The position numbers and the translations under genes were made by a program. 64,000 nucleotides of DNA. It comes from Diospyros lotus. Taxonomy: Eukaryota; Streptophyta; Magnoliopsida; Ericales; Ebenaceae. Below are positions 23,157 to 34,586 of this stretch, one piece after another (within the stretch, counting starts at the first letter, position 1; the number at the start of each line of letters is the position of its first letter). The stretch is from the NCBI RefSeq assembly GCF_014633365.1, contig NC_068351.1:20325366-20389365 (forward strand), read 5' to 3'. The notes beneath the pieces are model-generated. The model saw nothing but the letters and a program-made list of their open reading frames with translations, was not told the origin of the DNA and did not search any database.

Positions 23157-23579
23157 TGTAACGACCCGTTGGCGGGTCTATGTTATTTTGTCGTCATTTT
23201 ATGGGAAGTGTATTTTGTCATAATGAGATCAATATATTATGGGATGTTGAAGGGTTGAAAATATATAAAGATGAAATTATGTGGAAAAGTCAAATGAAGA
23301 ATGAGGGATTAAAGTTAAAGTTGATTAGTCAAAAATTGAATGTGGGGAAAATTGGAAGAACAGGGCTACTGTGTGTATACATAAATGTATATCTGTTGCA
23401 TGTATATTATGTGGGTGGATATTTGTTTACGTGGATTATTATATATATGAGTATGTATATGTAGGGTATAAAGAGGAAAAGAAAAGCAAAGAAGGAAAGG
23501 CACAACAGGCTATTGACCATTTACAAGAGAGCTGTTGATCGGTCCCGAACGGTCACCCGTTCTTCTTCTGTTTGTTGAC
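23157..23579 (+). mobile_element. 5' part of a gypsy LTR (TGTAACGACCCG type), interrupted
   Basis: It begins TGTAACGACCCGTTGGCGGG, a common start of long Ty3/gypsy LTRs in plants, and contains a TATA-like GGTATAAAGAGG near 23465. At 23579 it is cut by the 23580-34581 element. The sequence resuming at 34587 partly repeats U3-like words of this piece ('gaaaagtcaaatgaa'), so the two may be one LTR with internal duplication or two LTR fragments. Confidence 0.55.
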
Positions 23580-25232
23580 TAACTACATTTTCACCCTGTA
23601 ATTAAAACACAAAATAAAACACAATAAAAATTTTATATTTTTTTGTTTATTTAGGTGAGAGGTTTATACTCGTCAGTGTACGGGTGCAGTTATAGTCCAA
23701 ATTTAAATTTATACTTTCTGGATGAGTCCAGGTCGTCCACTAAGAGATTTATTTATGGCAAAAGAAAAAGAATATCACACACGCACACACATTTAGATGG
23801 ATTGGTAACAAGATTTTTTTTTTTTTACAATTTTTAGATAACAGATACTAGAAAATAAAGTAAGGTAGAAGTTGAAATAAATGCTTAATGTGAAGATATA
23901 AAATTGGATATCACTTGAGTTAAGACAATTTCAGCACCAACCCGTTAATTCTCAAATTTTAGTAGATAAGGTTAGTAACATTAATTTAATTTCAGATATG
24001 AGAGTTTGTTACTAAATGCAATTAGAGATGATGATAGTTCTAGTTTAAGCAATCATCATACATGATATGCGGGATTCTATTTTAAGCAACTACCATAAAT
24101 CCAATTACAATTAATATACAAAACAACTAAATTAATCATCCGAATTTTGGTATGATAGCATTTCCAGTTCTAGTAACTCCCATGCGTGACATGAAAGCTC
24201 TAAGTTAGGTTTATACTCCAATCCGAACCTGGTGATTTTCTAATAATTAAAACACATTCATACTGAAATTTAAATTAATGTTACTCATTTAAAGCGCAGC
24301 TTTCTTTGGGAATCATTGGCGTTGGACACTGTCCTTGCCTTAACCCAAGATTAGATTTAGCTACTCATTTCCATTTAAAAGTTAATTAATAAGAATTTAA
24401 ATGGCGTAATTTAAATAACAAGAATTAAAATAGCAGAAACTAACCGGCCATTTAGGCGGTGGATAATTAAAAGACAAGAATTAAAATTGCAGAAATTTAA
24501 AGACAGAAATTAACTGGCCATTTAGGCGGTGGATAATAAAGTAACAATAAATGACATAAAAATTTAAAATAAGAAAGGAAGGAAGTAAGATTACAAGAGA
24601 AAACAAGAGAGAGAATAAGAGCAATTCTCTAAGAGAAACTCTAAGAACAAAACTAAAATTTGATTCAAGTAATAACCACATCCTCACAAATGCGCCCAAG
24701 TGAGCTATTTATAGCCCACAAGATGCAATACAAACCATACAATTATTCAACTAAACATAATTATATCTAATGGGCACTCACAAAACATTCACTTAACTAA
24801 TTGAAGAAAATTAGGTAAAAGACAAAAAATACCAAAGACTTTAGGTGGTGGACTACTCATAAGAATACAAAAGACTTTAGGTGGTAAATCACTTATAAAA
24901 AAAATACAAAACAAATAAAAGTCTTCTACAAGTTGGGCTTTTGTTGGGCCTTTGGTTGGTCTTGGGCCTTTCTTATGTTGGATTCTATTTGATAGTTGGG
25001 CCAAGTGCACTTGAAACATCCTTTAAACTCCATAGTTTGCCCATGAATTTGAGCAACAATAATGGGTAATCCAACATCTTCGATTTATGCCCCTAATTAA
25101 TTGTAGAAGTCAACTTCCTTGCTTCATCCTTTAATAATATGTAATACAAATAATTATTTATTTTAAGCATAAATATAAAGCCAAAATGAGGATATAATTT
25201 ATTAAGATTTAGGAAATATTGACCTCTCATCA
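23580..25232 (-). repeat. 3' LTR (left copy) of the LOG-carrying element
   Basis: 1,653 bp. On the minus strand it begins TGATGAGAGGTCAATATTTCC. It has about 44 bp (near 24143-24186) that are missing from the right LTR, where the flanks 'catccg' and 'tgacatgaaagc' are joined, consistent with a deletion at a CG microhomology in the right copy. A minus-strand TATAAATAG lies at 24705-24713. The matching minus-strand open frame in both LTRs (24481-24699, 33830-34048) is not a gene. Confidence 0.9.
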
Positions 25233-25246
25233 CACCCCCCAACTTG
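25233..25246 (-). other. Polypurine tract of the LOG-carrying element
   Basis: On the minus strand 'caagttggggggtg' directly precedes the LTR start TGATGAGAGG. Its position and G-run fit the plus-strand primer. Confidence 0.7.
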
Positions 25247-26201
25247 AATATTGCTAGTCCCTTAGCAATCAGATTATACACCAGCCATGATCTAATTGCA
25301 ATATTTACATGAATATAGAAATTTCAAATTCGAAACCAAAATGCGTAGAGTAGAATATTCAAAATTAGATTTCTGGTTAAAGATCATACAATTTTAGGAA
25401 TAGCAATCAGGATGACCAATACACAGACTTACTCCCTCGAAGTTTTGACTTTAAACCTTACTGTGGATTTTTGCTCCAATAAAACGAGTCCTCAGGTGTA
25501 CACACAAGGGGGTGCACCGTTATAAGAGTAAATGTAAAACAAGTTCAAAATTCGATGTCATCCCAAATATAAGAAACGCATTTTCATGAAAGAACGGGGA
25601 AATTGACATAGATTCATGACTGGAATAATGCCCTAAATGAATAAGTTTTGAATTTAAACATAATTCCTTACTCCAAACTTGAATTATGAGATCACATGAT
25701 TTATAGCATCAAAAGGGATCAGACCGGGTTATAATGGGGTTATGAGGTTAATACAGGTTGTTAAAGAAAATGATAGAGTATGCAAATGGTGTGTTGAGAT
25801 TTTTTTTTTCAATATTTATTTTGAAACAATTGTGCTGAATAGCTAAAAGAATTTTTTTTTCACTTTTTTTTTTCTTTTTTTTTTTTCTCTTTTTTTTTCT
25901 TTTTTTTTTAAACATGAAAATGGTTAGACAGACTAATTCCCAAAATCACACCAGGTTGGACAAAATTCATATAGTTATGGGTTAAACGAGAGTAATGAAA
26001 GAAATTGTACTACAAATGACTCACATGGGCTAGCAAGAAGGTTAATGTAAAGAAAGAAAAAGGTTAATAGGCCCAAAATAAAAGAAATTGATCCCCCTAT
26101 CATGTTTCTACAAAACAATGTTACTTAGTCATCTAATTCAGAATTTAAAACCAGTCAAATTCATCCGCTATCATACTAGACATTCAAGGCGAATTGATGT
26201 T
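25247..26201 (-). other. 3' non-coding internal region of the LOG-carrying element
   Basis: No ORF of interest. A long T-rich stretch lies at 25851-25911. The region continues at 28774 beyond the nested solo LTR. Confidence 0.5.
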
Positions 26202-26206
26202 TTGAA

Positions 26207-28768
26207 TGTAACACCCCGCTTTTCCGGGTGCGTTATATCTTGGGACAATTCCGAGACAATAAATTTTTTTCTTTCAAACATTAATACTAAACCACATCAT
26301 TTCTCGAATCTGTCCCAGAATTCCCATACATTAATCTCGGGAGAGAATCACTTACACATCAAATGCGGAAGCAATGATTGAAACCTAATATCTTAACATT
26401 AATCATAAATAAATTCTTACATCTTCAACATTCCTCAAAACGTTCAAAATCTAAAGTAGCATAACTTAAATACAGGGGCCACGTTACATACATTTCATTT
26501 CTCATGCACTCTGCTAAGTGTTATTTCATGCCTCATTTATCCTCGTATCTGTTACAATCTCCACTTGGAACGTTTGAATATTCTAGGGGCAAAACCCAAG
26601 TTTGATGATGAATCATCTAAGTAAGGGTACATAAAACATATTTCGTGCATGAATGCAATGTCTTTTATCGTAGGTGTCAACTGCACCCCTCATGCTACCT
26701 ACCATTGTTTCGGCCCCCTCTTTCGAAGTCGAGGTGTATGGGTGCACCCTTGGTAAAGTAGCAGTGCCAGTTCGTACTCCCTACGGCCTCAAATGCGAGT
26801 GATCAATGATATTAACGTGTATTCATGCATTTCATAATCATGTCATGTATGCAGTCTACGTGATGGATACATATCAGGGCGTGTCAATATGATGAAAATA
26901 TTTTCGAGGAACATAAACCAAGCATTTTCCACAAAACTAAATTTAATTGGGGAGTACCACTTACCTTCTAAATCTTATCGGGCTACCTCGATATCCGTGC
27001 CTTGCTTAATGCATCGCCTCGATTTTGGTGCCAACCTCAAAATTTGACAAGTCACTTCAACTTATTCCTCAAAGCATCCTAATCACCATAATTATTTAAA
27101 TAAACATTAAATTCTATTTTTCCATAATTTCTGGCATTTTCTATAATTGTTTTCTCTATTTCTTCCTATTTTTTCTCAATAAATCCAGATTAAATATTTC
27201 TAAAATATTTTCTCAAATATTTCACTACGAAAATTCATAAAATAATATTCTTGAATTTCTAAAATTTTTTAAGAAATTTTTACTTACCTTGACTTAGCAT
27301 CTCCGACTTTCTCGATATGCGTGTCAGATTTCCGAAACGCGTGCCCAAACCATTTTACTTATCAAAATCTCTGAAAAATTACTAAATCCCCAAATCTTAT
27401 TATTTTTTTTTTTTATGATTTTTCTAACATTTTTCTATTTTTTTTCTCCATTTTTTCTTTCTTTTCTTTCCTTTTCTTTTTCTTTCTTTTCTTCTCTTCT
27501 TCCTCTCTCCTCCTCCTTCTTCCCCTGTTTCTTCCTCCAGTGCCCGCCTGCAACTGCCGTGCGTACTAGCTGCCGCCACAAGTCGCTGGCTCGGCCAGCC
27601 TCGCCATCGCCGAACTCCGCAGCCTCTACCCGCACAGCTTCCGCACCGCGGCCAGCCTCCCTGCGTCGTGACGGCCTGCTAGAGCACGTGACCATGGCTG
27701 CCATGGTAACGAATTCTCTTCTTCTAGCTGCTTCCCGAGCTGCCTCAGGCACCAACGAACCTTGATGCAACTGCTTCGAGTGTTGGCTGCCATCTTTTTG
27801 TCGACCAATCGCTTGAGAGCTTTGAGCTCGAGCTGCCATGGTCGCAGCTTGCAGCCATGGTTACTGTCCACCTCTTACGGCTAGCTTCGGCCGCTTCCGC
27901 AACTTCCTTGCGCCTCCCCGAACTCTCTTCCATCTCTCTCATCTCTCTCGAGCTCGAGCTCAAGCTTCCTCTGCCTTTCTCTTGGCCGAATGCATCCTAT
28001 TTATAGGCGGCTACTATACGAAATGCATATAAATATATATCACATTAATTGCTAACCCCTTAAATCTTGCTGCCATATCTTCTTCTCTAAATCTCGCTGC
28101 CACAATCTCCCCATTTCGCGGCCACAATCTTGGCCATTTAAAGCTTCACAGAAGTTTCGCGAAGCCATTACATTTGCAGAGCATAGGCAGCCGCACGCAC
28201 AGCACATTTATATACATATATATATAATTCTATATTATATTGCAATAATAAAAATTATATATTTAAATTATAAAAATTCTTTCTATTTCACTTAAATAAT
28301 TATCTAATTGCAACTATGCCATTAAATATTGAATTTATTTGCATTACAATACCGAAAACACAAAATTAATAATCCAATTATTAGTTGAAAATGACGATTT
28401 CGCCCCAGTGTCCTTACTGGGCTGTTGTTTCATCCCAAAACCACTGAAGGGTTGCTCACTACGCAAAACCAAAGCCCCCCTAGGGGTCCGTTGATTTTTT
28501 GGGAGCCTCCTACAACGATTCGATTTTTCAGCCTAAATGGCAGTTGTATTTTAGCTTTACCAAAAATCGTTCCGAATTCGATTTCTTTCGATACCATAAA
28601 TCCTAGCTTGATACGCTCGTCGAGACCATATAATTTTCCTTAGATACTTTCACTCCGAGGCATTCCATACAGTCGATTCGATACTTATAACTGCTATCAA
28701 ACCAATTTTTCGGTATTCTAAACTCATTAAAATTACGTGGCAACCTTATACAAACATGGGGTATTACA
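26207..28768 (-). mobile_element. Solo LTR (2.56 kb) nested in the LOG-carrying element
   Basis: Left end TGTAACACCCC, right end GGGGTATTACA, flanked by a perfect duplication TTGAA (26202-26206 and 28769-28773). It is oriented minus, as TGTAATACCCC is the 5' end of intact members such as 35861 and 54655. A minus-strand TATAAATAG is at 27997-28005. GC-rich open frames on both strands at 27415-28032 fall in its transcribed part and show no protein family. No internal sequence, so a solo LTR. Confidence 0.92.
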
Positions 28769-28773
28769 TTGAA

Positions 28774-29374
28774 GCCATTGAAAAGATGAGATAAACAATA
28801 AAACATATTTAGAGTAAGTGTTATTTCACTCAGAATTAATGGTTATTAGGCTCAAACACTCACTTGGGAAATAGTCTCCACTTCTGTTGAGAGATCATAC
28901 AGTGTACTAATTAGCTAATTACTATCACCTTTGACTTTATGACCAATAACCAATTTTTTTAATTTTGAATACCCGATGAATGCAAATTACTTGTTCCAAT
29001 GCATATACGTTTTCAAATAAGAAATCAATGCATTCATGTTTCATATCGCAGACTTAACCAGCTATCAGTGCATAACTCCAAAGCTTTAGGAATAGCGTTA
29101 TTTAAAACACAATTTTTTTTTTTTAATAAGAGCAGATAAAGATAATCAATTCACACAAAACTACAAGCAAATAATAGCAAACTCACAGCTAAACATGAAC
29201 AAAATTATTCATAATTAGACCTTACACCCCCCAACTTGAATTCCAGTAATAAAATAGGGTTGTTGGGAATACCTGTAACTCCACAAGTCCATAGATTTAC
29301 TGTGAACTGCTAGAACTCAAACAAACAAATGAGCATAACATATATATTTATATTTTCACATAAAAAAAAATTAT
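28774..29374 (-). other. Internal non-coding segment with a second PPT-like sequence
   Basis: At 29223-29242 the plus strand reads 'tacaccccccaacttgaatt', nearly the same as the true PPT region at 25231. No gene is seen. Confidence 0.5.
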
Positions 29375-29591
29375 GCAAGTCATAAGATAAACAAAATGCG
29401 TCTCAAGAGTACAAAATTACTCCTTACTTAGCCATCTTATCATAGATTTGCCTAACAACATTCCACAGTTTTCTCTTCTTCTTTTTTTTTTTTTTTAAGA
29501 GAACATAAAAAAATTTCATGCAAGTCATAGGAGATGCGTTTCAAGAGTACAAAAAGTACTCCTTACTCAGCCATCTCATCATAGACTTGTC
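29375..29591 (-). repeat. Two tandem fragments related to the upstream unknown ORF
   Basis: Segments at about 29375-29455 and 29518-29591 are near-copies of each other: both have 'gcaagtcata', 'atgcgt', 'tcaagagtacaaaa' and 'actccttact', then 'agccatct'. The words 'gcgtctcaagagt' and 'ctccttactcagcc' also occur inside the unknown ORF at about 30574-30621. They therefore look like truncated duplicates of that ORF lying in the 3' flank of the LOG gene. Confidence 0.65.
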
Positions 29592-30251
29592 TTATAGGGA
29601 TAAATCTAAATTAATCGGACCCATTTGGCGCTTGTTTCTGGTTACCTTAGACCAATCTATCCGAGACTCATAAAAATCGTGCTGTGGAACATAAGTGTGT
29701 AATTTCTCTAGCAGCTCATCAATGGTGGATGTGGAAATGAGAATCTTTCTTGCTGAAAGAGAAATGAACTTTTGATCCACAGCCTGATCAAGAAAAGAAA
29801 CCAACCCATCGAAAAAATGGTTAACATTTAAAAGTCCAATGGGTTTGGTATGGAGATTACTCTTGGCCCAGGAGATTATACAAAAGATTTCTTCAAGTGT
29901 TCCAAAATTTCCTGGTAAAGCAATGAAGGCGTCTGACTGATAAATCTTACAAGCCATGCGCTCAGACATAGAAGTCGTTTCTATAAGTTGACCGCGTATA
30001 ATCCCAGAAATATGTGGTTCAGCAAAAGGGATTGGCATTACACCTACCACATATTCTTTTCCAAGATGTGCAGCTTGTGAAACACAACCATTCAATCCAC
30101 GACTTCCTCCTCCATATACCAAATTAAATTTTTTTTCTCCTAATTTTAGGCCAAGTTCGCTTGCTGCAAGTGCATAACAACTATCCCTCCCGAGTTGAGA
30201 GCCACATAGTACACATATGGTGTTGATTCGATGAACTAACTGACCTTCCAT
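29592..30251 (-). CDS. LOG-family cytokinin riboside 5'-monophosphate phosphoribohydrolase-like protein, retrotransposon-borne
   Basis: LOG enzymes cleave cytokinin nucleotides to the active free base plus ribose 5-phosphate, usually in cytosol and nucleus. This intact 219-codon ORF has the full fold length (family about 210-230 aa). VCG motif ICVLCGS is at residues 12-18; nucleotide-binding NLVYGGGSRGLNG at 43-55; ISG at 81-83. The catalytic Arg is kept at 98 (MSERMACK), and the PGGxGTxxE box reads PGNFGTLEE at 113-121, with Glu121 kept but the second Gly replaced by Asn. WAKSNLHTKPIGLLNVNHFF (128-147) is typical of the family. Plant LOG genes normally have several introns; this one has none, fitting capture as cDNA. 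It lies between the two LTRs of the 23580-34581 element, 171 bp after an unknown ORF. A TTTTCAG acceptor-like sequence sits 24 bp upstream of the ATG. Whether it is expressed or active cannot be told from sequence. Confidence 0.88.
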   Translation of the reverse strand: MEGQLVHRINTICVLCGSQLGRDSCYALAASELGLKLGEKKFNLVYGGGSRGLNGCVSQAAHLGKEYVVGVMPIPFAEPHISGIIRGQLIETTSMSERMACKIYQSDAFIALPGNFGTLEEIFCIISWAKSNLHTKPIGLLNVNHFFDGLVSFLDQAVDQKFISLSARKILISTSTIDELLEKLHTYVPQHDFYESRIDWSKVTRNKRQMGPINLDLSL

Positions 30252-30422
30252 TTATATTTGTTCTTTATGTATGCCCTGAAAAGAGATTTGGTGATCAAAA
30301 GTAGGTATACAAAAATTTAACAAGAAATAAACACAAATAAAGATTATGCGTATGTACAAATAGTTGTGATTGTGGCTCACATTTTCCTCTAGTTTTATGT
30401 CCAGAAACAGCTTAAACACCTT

Positions 30423-30968
30423 CTATGAAGTGGGGATAGGCTTCCCATCCAATTTTCTTAAAGATTGGCAAACATGGTCATTTTTAGTCAGATTCCCAAG
30501 ACTATAGCGTTGGTGGTCACTTATGAACTGGGCCCATAAAGCAAGAAGTTCTCTTTGCACTATTCCACACATATGCGTCTCAAGAGTCAATCGGATATCA
30601 TCCAAAGACTCCTTACTCAGCCCATCCTTTATGAAACCAATTTTATCTTCTTGATTTACGGATGTAAACCCCACAGATTTGTATCGTGTGTTACAGGTCC
30701 AATGAGCACATTTGTGACAACCATTCACCCTTTTCGCTCTTCGTTTCTTCGCAAAACTACTCTTTCCCAAACCTGGAAAGTGCTTAAAACTAGGTGAAGT
30801 TTCACCTAGTAATCAAACTTTTGTCTCGATCAACCAGCGAATATCTTCAGGGATGTTATTATACATCAACATTCTAAGTCTTTCACACCTAGCGGCATAA
30901 ATGTTTTTCAAATCATTCATTGGGAGAGATGGATAGTACTTGCAAATTTTTAAGAGTTGAAGATCCAT
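30423..30968 (-). pseudogene. Unrecognised second ORF of the LOG-carrying element, one in-frame stop
   Basis: From ATG 30968 a 181-codon frame runs to the stop at 30423, broken only by TGA at codon 52 (30813-30815). The N-terminal part (MDLQLLKICKYYPSLPMNDL onward) looks helical and basic. After the stop come a lysine/arginine patch (KSSFAKKRRAKRVNG), then CHKCAHWTC, which could be a metal-binding Cys/His knuckle, and a moderately charged C-terminus. I do not recognise the family. It precedes the LOG ORF on the same strand, and pieces of it recur downstream at 29375-29591. It may be an element protein or a second captured fragment. Confidence 0.5.
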
Positions 30969-31789
30969 TTTTTTTTAATTAAAACACAACTATAATAAAA
31001 GAAAACTAAAAACTATGAATCTTGCAAAATGAACGCGAGTACCTGATTGGAGAACAACACGAAGGAAATGAGACTGAGCTTGCTTACATAAGTGTGGCTT
31101 ACCTTATACAGATATGGAGTCTCTTATAGAGCAATGGGTATCACTATTCTACACTCGGCTCGAGGCACGCCATAATTGTAGGGTCAGGCGCGTCTATTTT
31201 TTCAACGCTCGGTGCCTCATTTTTCAACATTTGGCAGTGTGCCTCTTCCTTTATAGGACAGTGTGATTGCACTGCCTGAGAAAAATGGCTACCACCAGTG
31301 CCAATTCTGTCTCTCTCAATTCAATTTTTTGTTTTTTTATTATATATTTTTAATTATTATTATTATTATTTATTTTTTAATTAATTTTTTCTTAATTATT
31401 TTTTTAGGGGTTTTTTTTAGTGGCCTAATAAAATTATATATATACCACACAAGACAATATTATCGAGTCAAACAAAATTATTTGCACAATGGATCAATTT
31501 CAAACACCAATAAATCAATTCTTAAGTAATTCTTAAGTACACCTTACCTCTCAACTTGAATTGCGCATTGTCCTCAATCGGCAATAAAATGATAGAAGAT
31601 AGGCATACTTGGCAGTCTTCAGTGCATGAACTCGTATGCAAAAATTTTATTTAGACTGTACACAAAGAAACACTATTTAAGTAATGCAGAAAAGGAACAA
31701 CTTATATGTATATATATACTTTTTTTTGTATATATATTTATTTATTTATTAAAAAATATTTTATTATATATTTTTATTTTATTTTATTT
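30969..31789 (-). other. Non-coding spacer between gag-like ORF and unknown ORF, with promoter- and splice-like signals
   Basis: On the minus strand a CCTATAAAGG sits near 31244-31253 and a donor-like AAGGTAAGC near 31097-31105; CAATCAGGTAC follows near 31040-31050. These could be the upstream end of a captured gene or chance. At 31543-31560 a third copy of the 'caacttgaatt' PPT-type sequence occurs. 31318-31440 is T-rich. Confidence 0.35.
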
Positions 31790-32774
31790 TTAGAGTTTTT
31801 TTTTTCTTTTCTTCCAGTTAAGGATCAAATGAGTGGTTGCACACCTACACATATAATAACTCCCATTCATTACACCAATTTTAAAGTTATTTTCAAAATT
31901 ATGTAAATTGATTTTTCTCATGAATGCACATACATATTTTGAAAATATATCATCCGGAGGTGTTGGTTTTATTACATCAGAGTACGACACATTAATTTGC
32001 AAAAACACCTCACACATGTTTGGTTTAATTTGATCACCAATAATATCGACTAGCCTAAAAGATAGAAATTTAGGCTTAAATGTGAATAAACTTATGACAT
32101 CTTCACATTTTGGCTCTCGGATTTTATCCTCTTCTTCCTCCCAGGTTTCTTTTTTTTCTCACATCATTTTGGGCCAATTTTTCTTCTATGATTGCTTGTA
32201 CCATCATAGGTTCATCAAGTCTCTCAATTGGCTCATCATTCCTAGGGATGGATGTAAATTGGTCCAACTCTTGTCCTATGGGTGCATTGAATAACAATTT
32301 CCCCCCTTCGAAATTTTGATTAGGTTGGTTCGGAAACTCGCCAGGCTCACTCACGCTCGAGGTCTGTGTAAGTTCAATCAATTGTTCTAAAATGTCACCT
32401 ATGGCCCTAGTGGTTTGTTCTTGAAATTCGGCCATTTGTGCATTAAAACTCATTTGACCTTGCATAAACTCCTGAAGGATGTCCTCTAAAAGATTTTCAT
32501 CCTGAGGTTGATAAGTATCAGATCTAACCCCTTGTTCTAACTTGAATTGGTGAGATACTGGAGAGAAATGTTCATGAGATTGGAACAAAGAGTCATCATT
32601 CCAAGGATAATTTCAATGGTCATATGAACTAGGGTAATCAATGTAAAGATTCGGGTCGTAGCCCGACAGATAAAAATTCTCCCCCTGACTTTGGTTAAAA
32701 GAAAACCTCTCATCACTGGGATCGGGATGGCCAAATGCATTAGAAGACACATAAATGCTAAAATACTGAGACAT
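31790..32774 (-). pseudogene. Gag-like ORF1 with predicted coiled coil, one stop and one frameshift
   Basis: The frame opens at ATG 32774 (MSQYFSIYVSSNAFGHPDPS) and continues in frame to 32124. One TGA interrupts it (near 32625, where a TGG Trp codon is likely). The middle part, ENLLEDILQEFMQGQMSFNA to RAIGDILEQLIELT, has heptad-like spacing as in the coiled-coil tail of Athila/Tat-type Gag. A frameshift near 32130 moves the reading to WEEEEDKIREPKCEDV and on to about 31790. No zinc knuckle is seen. Position just after the PBS fits Gag; family assignment is tentative. Confidence 0.5.
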
Positions 32775-32951
32775 GAAGAATATGAAAATGACAATTCAAT
32801 AACAGATAATGATGCTAATGAATCAATTAATGTTTCAATAATCATACCTGACCGTAGTCTCTTGCACTGTTTAGTAATTAATAGTTATCTAAATATATAT
32901 ATATATATATATTTTTTTTAATTTATAATTTTTTTTCTTTTTGTCTCAATC

Positions 32952-32969
32952 TCCCCGGCAACGGCGCCA
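32952..32969 (-). other. Primer-binding site, tRNA-Asp type
   Basis: TGGCGCCGTTGCCGGGGA on the minus strand is a perfect 18-base complement to the 3' end of plant tRNA-Asp, as used by Athila/Tat-group elements. It lies 5 bp inside the right LTR. Confidence 0.9.
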
Positions 32970-32974
32970 AAATT

Positions 32975-34581
32975 TGGCTGCACTCTCACCCTACAATTAA
33001 AACACAAAACAAAACACAATAAAAATTTTATATTTTTTTGTTTATTTAGGTGAGAGATTTATACTCGTCAGTGTACGAGTGTAGTTGTAGTCCAAATTTA
33101 AATTTATACTTTCTGGATGAGTCCAGGTCGTCCACTAAGAGATTTATTTATGGCAAAAGAAAAAGAATGTCACACACGCACGCGCATTTAGATGGATTGG
33201 TAACAAGATTTTTTTTTTTATGATTTTTAGATAACAAATACTAGAAAATAAAGTAAGGTAGAAGTTGAAATAAATGCTTAATGTGAGGATATAAAATTGG
33301 ATAGCATTTGAGTTAAGACAATTTCAGCACCAACCCGTTAATTCCCAAATTTTAGTAGATCAGGTTAGTAACATTAATTTAATTTCAGATATGAGAGTTT
33401 GTTACTAAATGCAATTAGAGATGATGATAGTTCTAATTTAAGCAATTCCCATACATGATATGCGGGATTCTATTTTAAGCAACTACCATAAATCCAATTA
33501 CAATTAATATACAAAACAACTAAATTAATCATCCGTGACATGAAAGCTCTAAGTTAGGCTTACGCTCCAATCCGAACCTAGTGATTTTCTAATAATTAAA
33601 ACACACTCATACTGAAATTTAAATTAATGTTACTCATTTAAAGCGCAACTTTCTTCGGGAATCATTGGCGTTGGACATTGTCCTTGCCTTAACCCAAGAT
33701 TAGATTTAGCTACTCATTTCCATTTAAAAGTTAATTAACAAGAATTTAAATGGCGTAATTTAAATAACAAGAATTAAAATAGCAGAAACTAACCGGCCAT
33801 TTAGGCGGTGGATAATTAAAAGACAAGAATTAAAATTGCAGAAATTTAAAGACAGAAATTAACCGGCCATTTAGGCGGTGGATAATAAAGTAACAATAAA
33901 TGACATAAAAATTTAAAATAAGAAAGGAAGGAAGTAAGATTACAAGAGAAAACAAGAGAGAGAATAAGAGCAATTCTCTAAGAGAAACTCTAAGAACAAA
34001 ACTAAAATTTGATTCAAGTAATAACCACATCCTCACAAATGCGCCCAAGTGAGCTATTTATAGCCCACAAGATGCAATACAAACCACACAATTATTCAAC
34101 TAAACATAATTATATCTAATGGGCACTCACAAAACATTCACCTAACTAATGGAAGAAAAGTAGGTAAAAGACAAAAAATACCAAAGACTTTAGGTGGTGG
34201 ACTACTTATAAGAATACAAAATACTTTAGGTGGTAAATCACTTATAAAAAAAATACAAAACAAAGAAAAGTCTTCTACAAGTTGGGCTTTTGTTGGGCCT
34301 TTGGTTGGTCTTGGGCCTTTCTTATGTTGGATTCTATTTGATAGTTGGGCCAAGTGCATTTGAAACATCCTCTAAACTCCATAGTTTGCCCATTAATTTG
34401 AGCAACAATAATGGGTAATCCAACATCTTCGATTTATGCCCTTAATTAATTGTAGAAGTCAACTTCCTTGTTTCATCCTGTAATAATATGTAATGCAAAT
34501 AATTATTTATTTTAAGCATAAATATAAAGCAAAAATGGGGATATAATTCATTAAGATTTAGGAAATATTGACCTCTCATCA
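32975..34581 (-). repeat. 5' LTR (right copy) of the LOG-carrying element
   Basis: 1,607 bp. The differences from the left copy are a few percent plus the 44-bp deletion. Contains the element promoter TATA at 34054-34062. On the minus strand it ends GAGTGCAGCCA before the PBS. Confidence 0.9.
34054..34062 (-). promoter_or_regulatory. TATA box of the 5' LTR
   Basis: TATAAATAG on the minus strand within GGGCTATAAATAGCTC. It would drive element RNA leftward through ORF1, the unknown ORF and LOG. Confidence 0.65.
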
Positions 34582-34586
34582 TTGAT

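Follow-up and report, generated by a model that had tools for sequence, protein, structure and literature searches.

The window, a stretch of 64,000 nucleotides from Diospyros lotus (NC_068351.1, positions 20,325,366 to 20,389,365), carries one minus-strand long terminal repeat (LTR) retrotransposon at 23580-34581. As the initial annotation had noted, the LTRs, primer binding site (PBS) and polypurine tract (PPT) of this single element enclose an open reading frame (ORF) of the LOG family, 219 codons in length. The best explanation, in which we place moderate confidence, is that this ORF is a decayed copy of a standing accessory gene, belonging to a high-copy Ty3/gypsy LTR-retrotransposon lineage that carries LOG paired with a second ORF (ORF2); the roles given below to the enzyme and to its expression are those we infer. 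The features on which this reading rests are as follows.

29592..30251, minus strand: LOG-like ORF, 219 aa, motif PGNFGTLEE
30423..30968, minus strand: ORF2 relic, carlavirus-type nucleic-acid-binding (cysteine-rich) protein, one in-frame stop, open part 30423-30770
32975..34581, minus strand: 5′ LTR, 1607 bp
23580..25232, minus strand: 3′ LTR, 1653 bp
32952..32969, minus strand: PBS, TGGCGCCGTTGCCGGGGA
25233..25245, minus strand: PPT, AAGTTGGGGGGTG
34582..34586, minus strand: 5-bp flanking duplication, ATCAA in the element sense
23575..23579, minus strand: 5-bp flanking duplication, GTCAA in the element sense, matching ATCAA at 4 of 5 positions

The LOG-like ORF has the PF03641 domain and the LOG fold, and its nearest public protein is a D. 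lotus sequence with 85% identity. A search of the whole 630-Mb genome gave 1129 LOG candidates, of which the best-scoring 150 were scored, so that the set is biased to intact copies; 136 of these 150 were stop-free, and identical scores were shared by many of them. The host genome holds at least 162 LOG copies, which bears out the earlier expectation that several copies of the element carry the gene. Twenty ten-kb copies were fetched and, together with 3.6-kb loci, represented 25 distinct places including the window. ORF2 was located 170-190 bp upstream of LOG in all 25, two being read in pieces owing to frame breaks. When ORF2 without LOG was searched for, 12 plus-strand ORF2 matches outside the listed LOG places were taken (from the 150 of 992 candidates that were scored), and LOG was present at the same distance in each of them (8 open, 2 with stops and 2 frameshifted). 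Both ORFs were thus present at 37 of 37 inspected places, and no ORF2 was found at any of the seven 3-kb host LOG loci.

The ORF2 relic of the window matches Pfam PF05515 (1e-5, 26.1 bits; curated cutoff 23) and, according to tblastn, is 86% identical, with one stop, to the intact 181-aa ORF2 of copy L009, which itself scores 33.2 bits against the same cutoff. Among the ORF2 relatives, 26 of 28 matched PF05515 at E up to 0.01, and 26 of 28 likewise matched PF01623. In three gene models of Orobanche gracilis, ORF2 is fused with LOG pieces. For the viral cysteine-rich proteins (CRPs), the available text of PMC12172455 reports suppression of RNA silencing, and adds that the CRP of chrysanthemum virus B induces hyperplasia, acting as a transcription factor.

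The Ty3/gypsy order of gag, protease, reverse transcriptase, RNase H and integrase was found in L009 and its upstream piece L029. An LTR, PBS and gag plus protease (749 codons, running off the piece) are followed by a reverse transcriptase-RNase H-integrase frame of 1063 aa from the first ATG, and the intact ORF2 and LOG lie downstream of the integrase. Among the 20 ten-kb copies, ten had a near-whole pol stretch (some broken), one had a part and nine had none. In seven of the nine pol-free copies the repeat pair holding the LTRs brackets a short internal region, L019 and L027 being mixed, and both ORF2 and LOG are retained in pol-less elements. The LTR pairs of L015, L017 and L018 differ by a Kimura two-parameter distance (K2P) of 0.0023-0.0034, and these insertions are very young; the near-zero K2P of L016 and L020 comes from 2.6-2.7-kb repeats overrunning the LTR and does not give insertion ages. 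Four of the six stretches searched contain the exact PBS core, L017 and L018 lacking it, and exact 5-bp target-site duplications (TSDs) flank L015, L017 and L024. LOG matches also occur about 6.8-7.5 kb apart in one orientation at C14:18448121-18471026, C11:16479278-16494645 and C12:24636185-24643631. This spacing, and the extension of the L016 and L020 repeats past the LTR, is as in tandem LTR-sharing element arrays.

The window copy belongs to the pol-less kind, since no pol match was found within it. The Ty3/gypsy features of LTR pair, TSD, PBS and PPT are all present, the TSD agreeing at 4 of 5 bases. K2P between its LTRs is 0.033 over 1604 aligned bases, placing the insertion at about 1.3-2.4 million years ago. 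We take the PBS to be of the tRNA-Asp type, and this, together with the 3′ position of the extra ORFs, presumably hints at the Athila lineage. Two further features lie inside the element.

32124..32845, minus strand: broken 5′ internal region, ORFs 32124-32588 and 32537-32845
26207..28768, no strand assigned: nested LTR-like insert TGTAAC...TTACA, TSD TTGAA at 26202-26206 and 28769-28773

The former had no Pfam gag match and is read as a putative gag remnant by resemblance only. The latter, with ends TGTAACACCCCG...GGTATTACA and an exact TSD, is probably a solo LTR and was missing from the three related copies compared. A tRNA scan of the 64-kb window detected no tRNA gene.

According to the available text of PMC4979012, Arg99 and Glu122 are the proposed catalytic residues of CgLOG, the phosphate is contacted by the main chain of Gly116-Gly118 and by Thr119, and the adenine/prenyl pocket consists of Met96, His97, Lys100, Glu125 and Trp129. 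Alanine at the residues contacting adenosine monophosphate (AMP) nearly abolished activity, the individual mutants being unnamed in that text. We aligned 23 host-type LOG rows with 181 element-clade rows, 10 of which are from this genome. In the element clade, the catalytic Arg was retained in 166 of 181 rows and the Glu in 176, the loop glycines in 177 and 179, and the Thr in 180. The pocket was kept less evenly, with the equivalents of Met96 in 154 rows, His97 in 46 and Trp129 in 140. At the Lys100 position, 178 of 181 rows had Ile, Met or Leu, and the sole row with Lys was P0040, a long branch; the Glu125 position was mostly His or Gln, and Cys in this genome. Judged from this alignment, the pocket of cytokinin LOGs does not appear to be preserved in the element clade. 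Because Arg, Glu and the loop are mostly retained while the Lys100 and Glu125 equivalents are replaced, the chemistry seems to be kept with an altered pocket, and the enzyme may therefore act on a different substrate.

A more restricted version of the best explanation, overlapping with it in probability, is that the element LOG acts as an ordinary cytokinin-activating enzyme that tolerates the pocket differences and raises active cytokinin wherever the element is expressed. The retained fold and catalytic residues, the purifying selection described below and the frequent Met96 and Trp129 equivalents (154/181 and 140/181) agree with it, and we regard it as a serious possibility that falls short of an even chance, for Lys100 and Glu125 have unchanged equivalents in each of the 23 host LOGs but other residues in 180 and 181 of the 181 clade rows, respectively. 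The designation cytokinin-activating, used in the initial annotation, is thus unproven, as two pocket residues differ from those of all 23 host LOGs compared.

Selection on LOG was estimated as pairwise dN/dS (NG86) among 23 distinct 657-nt copies, L026 being excluded for its length, and 223 of the 253 pairs had dS over 0.05. The median of these 223 pairs was 0.34 (range 0.16-0.90), and it was 0.33 for the 20 stop-free copies (162 pairs). The ten pairs among five young copies gave 0.10-0.32. The median for ORF2 was 0.18 (41 pairs; 11 of 20 copies passed a fixed-frame filter and nine were dropped), and pol of L009 and L012 differed by 10 nonsynonymous and 20 synonymous changes. Since strong transition bias reduces dN/dS even without selection, a neutral simulation was run with the bias taken from three LTR pairs. 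The simulated median was 0.66-0.70, and the nonsynonymous fractions observed in three pairs arose in 0, 4 and 2 of 1000 runs, or 0, 3 and 2 when the CG/CHG effect was added. As the initial annotation had anticipated, dN/dS among the copies is well under 1, and it also lies under the neutral simulation; the element LOG looks to be kept by purifying selection.

The window copy itself is a different case. Its catalytic Arg and Glu are present, and the second glycine of the motif, which contacts the phosphate, is Asn (PGNFGTLEE, versus PGGFGTLEE or a close variant in most relatives), a residue found at this position in none of the 181 clade rows. Its residues equivalent to Met96, His97, Lys100, Glu125 and Trp129 are Met, Ser, Met, Cys and Trp. 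Because the phosphate-loop glycine is lost, the window LOG is probably enzymatically dead, and active-site changes are frequent in older LOG copies. Extrapolating from the neutral simulation, about 60-70% of neutral copies at approximately 11 changes would keep this ORF open at the age given by its LTRs, so the open frame is weak evidence of selection; the earlier suggestion that it hints at selection has little backing in the window copy, with its changed phosphate loop, and holds among the copies as a family. Pairs including the window copy had higher dN/dS (0.29-0.68), as expected from drift since insertion.

LOG and ORF2 could instead be passive passengers amplified with the element, their low dN/dS reflecting few source copies and not function. 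The many copies with an identical score, as after a burst, the non-independence of the pairwise values and the active-site changes in older copies would agree with this. We nevertheless consider it unlikely, because the pattern seen arises in no more than 4 of 1000 neutral simulations, catalytic residues are retained across a deep tree and pol-less elements retain both ORFs.

In a tree with 37 hand-picked element-type LOG rows and one long bacterial outgroup, the element-type LOGs formed a single clade apart from host-type LOGs (bootstrap/SH-like approximate likelihood ratio test (SH-aLRT) 99/97), with three Xanthoceras rows as its sister (98/92), and a larger quick tree agreed (95 rows, SH-aLRT 96). 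Named rows come from Diospyros, Rehmannia, Orobanche, Paulownia, Primulina, Reevesia, Diplodiscus, Melia and Populus, so the clade spans asterids and rosids. The pocket Lys and Glu persist in the Xanthoceras LOG-like models, both in P0241-P0243, which have two tandem LOG-like stretches each, and in P0260, which has a single stretch plus a fragment. Element-type clusters of 328 and 244 sequences (P0043 and P0072) occur in the parasitic broomrapes Orobanche minor and O. hederae. In agreement with the initial annotation, all 7 host LOG sites picked out by one codon pattern, a minimum number, have several exons. Compared with 23 host-type plant LOGs, the window LOG shows 38-44% identity, with 44% to Arabidopsis LOG3, whereas most clean matches of host LOG exons to LOG3 are 71-100% identical. 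Most simply, the intronless frame and the plant-type C-terminus would go back to a single, old uptake of a spliced LOG message from a plant; with one long bacterial outgroup as root, the clade may lie inside or beside the plant LOGs. One scan of viral contigs as a source of relatives gave 19 loci with best-segment identities of 24-43% and no close element-type LOG.

The initial annotation had proposed capture of a spliced LOG transcript at a recent date; the recent date is not supported, and the capture seems likely. Recent transduction, by one element, of a spliced LOG mRNA from this host, with cytokinin activation still intact, would account for an intronless ORF between LTRs in a host with multi-exon LOGs, and is very improbable given the 162 or more copies, the low identity to host-type LOGs compared with that of host exons, the single clade over asterids and rosids and the phosphate-loop change of the window copy. 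A recent single capture is ruled out by the number of copies, the tree and the distance to host LOGs, which indicate a part of a standing family. The least probable reading, ordinary intronless host retrogenes merely near repeats, for which one could cite the NCBI labels of some as LOGL10 genes (Diospyros lotus, Populus), is refuted for this genome by the fixed place between ORF2 and the 3′ LTR, by the LTR pairs, PBS, PPT and TSDs of several copies and by the seven host loci lacking ORF2.

Returning to the accessory-gene explanation, a spliced plant LOG transcript would have been taken up by the lineage long ago, either before the split of the sampled asterid and rosid lineages or with later spread between them. 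In this genome LOG travels with ORF2 between pol and the 3′ LTR, and the short pol-less elements would presumably be mobilised in trans. With the fold, Arg/Glu and phosphate loop kept, the family LOG most likely cleaves the base off a nucleoside 5′-monophosphate, which may be a cytokinin nucleotide or, considering the changed base/prenyl pocket, another, possibly N6-modified, nucleotide. It would most likely alter the cytokinin or nucleotide balance of cells that express it, in favour of division or a weaker defence, and ORF2, as an RNA-binding or silencing-suppressing partner, may blunt RNA silencing by analogy with viral CRPs. Linkage, copy number, selection, the conserved catalytic set and the altered pocket are observations on this genome.

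Several points weigh against this explanation. The catalytic Arg is lost in 15 of 181 clade rows, and the Trp129 equivalent is Arg in 37. Lys100 and Glu125 equivalents, Lys and Glu in 23 of 23 host rows, are so in 1 and 0 of 181 clade rows; because they are lost and the alanine mutants of CgLOG were nearly inactive, activity on cytokinin nucleotides is uncertain. Within this genome, PGGFGTLEE is exact in 19 of 24 distinct LOG sequences, and one further sequence lacks the catalytic Arg. The viral likeness of ORF2 is limited to a short central basic/zinc-finger stretch (residues 38-119), its predicted structure is poor (pLDDT 59), and the dN/dS pairs are mutually non-independent. Element location was demonstrated in this genome, and linkage of the clade rows elsewhere is deduced from clade membership, cluster sizes and the three Orobanche gene models.

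More tentatively, and with rather less than even confidence, the element clade may have neofunctionalised into a nucleotide phosphoribohydrolase for which cytokinin precursors are no longer the main substrates and which cleaves another, perhaps N6-modified or immune-signalling, nucleotide. It would form with the silencing-suppressor-like ORF2 an old two-gene module for counter-defence or cell reprogramming, present in autonomous and pol-less elements and conserved across Lamiales, Ericales, Malvales and Malpighiales. The LOG model aligns with ThsA SLOG domains, which bind cyclic ADP-ribose-type signals, at a lower Z of 11-12 (VIA-align); this model comparison shows a shared fold only, and an immune-nucleotide substrate is speculation.

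A LOG-family domain inside plant Gypsy elements is already known. The available text of Alvarado-Marchena et al. 2022 (PMC9289625), citing Steinbauerova et al. 2011, lists YgdH/LOG among 15 non-canonical domains in a 121-genome screen, in Citrus LTR elements and, without the n5 filter, also in Populus. It was the only report linking LOG to LTR elements that we found in open-licence literature, judged mostly by title and abstract start. Unlike the present analysis, it gives YgdH two sentences, in the text available, which include neither a partner ORF nor tests of selection, an analysis of the active site, a phylogeny or carriers without pol. The viral-like partner, selection, pol-less carriers and pocket change look new: no report of them was found in open-licence literature (subscription papers and preprints lay beyond it), nor one, judged mostly by title and abstract start, linking carlavirus nucleic-acid-binding proteins to retrotransposons. 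Taken as a family, the element LOG shares with plant LOGs (Arabidopsis LOG3 At2g37210 and LOG8 At5g11950) the fold, PGGxGTxxE, the catalytic Arg/Glu and a plant-type C-terminal stretch, and differs in being intronless, 38-44% identical, in a clade of its own and with the pocket Lys and Glu replaced. ORF2 resembles carlavirus-type cysteine-rich/nucleic-acid-binding proteins (PF05515, PF01623) in its basic stretch and adjacent cysteines, but it is retrotransposon-encoded, is 181 aa long and is alike only within the central stretch. Orchid Gypsy elements with an AlkB N6-methyladenosine demethylase likewise carry an enzyme of host type as a fixed additional ORF; that enzyme is a different one, in that screen was confined to Phalaenopsis and has demonstrated in vitro activity (PMC9289625, available text).

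For most extra ORFs in plant LTR retrotransposons, the available text of PMC7264820 and PMC11728184 describes origin and function as unknown. The element LOG is an extra ORF traceable to a host-type enzyme, with catalytic residues mostly kept, under selection, with a viral-type partner and in well over a hundred copies. In public databases the name LOGL10 is given to the element-clade LOGs P0001, P0256 and P0295 (Diospyros lotus, Populus trichocarpa and Populus nigra), which is likely annotation contamination by a mobile element, and such naming of element copies in Diospyros and Populus can distort surveys of cytokinin gene families. With a soluble enzyme, what a retrotransposon gains from its extra gene becomes testable.
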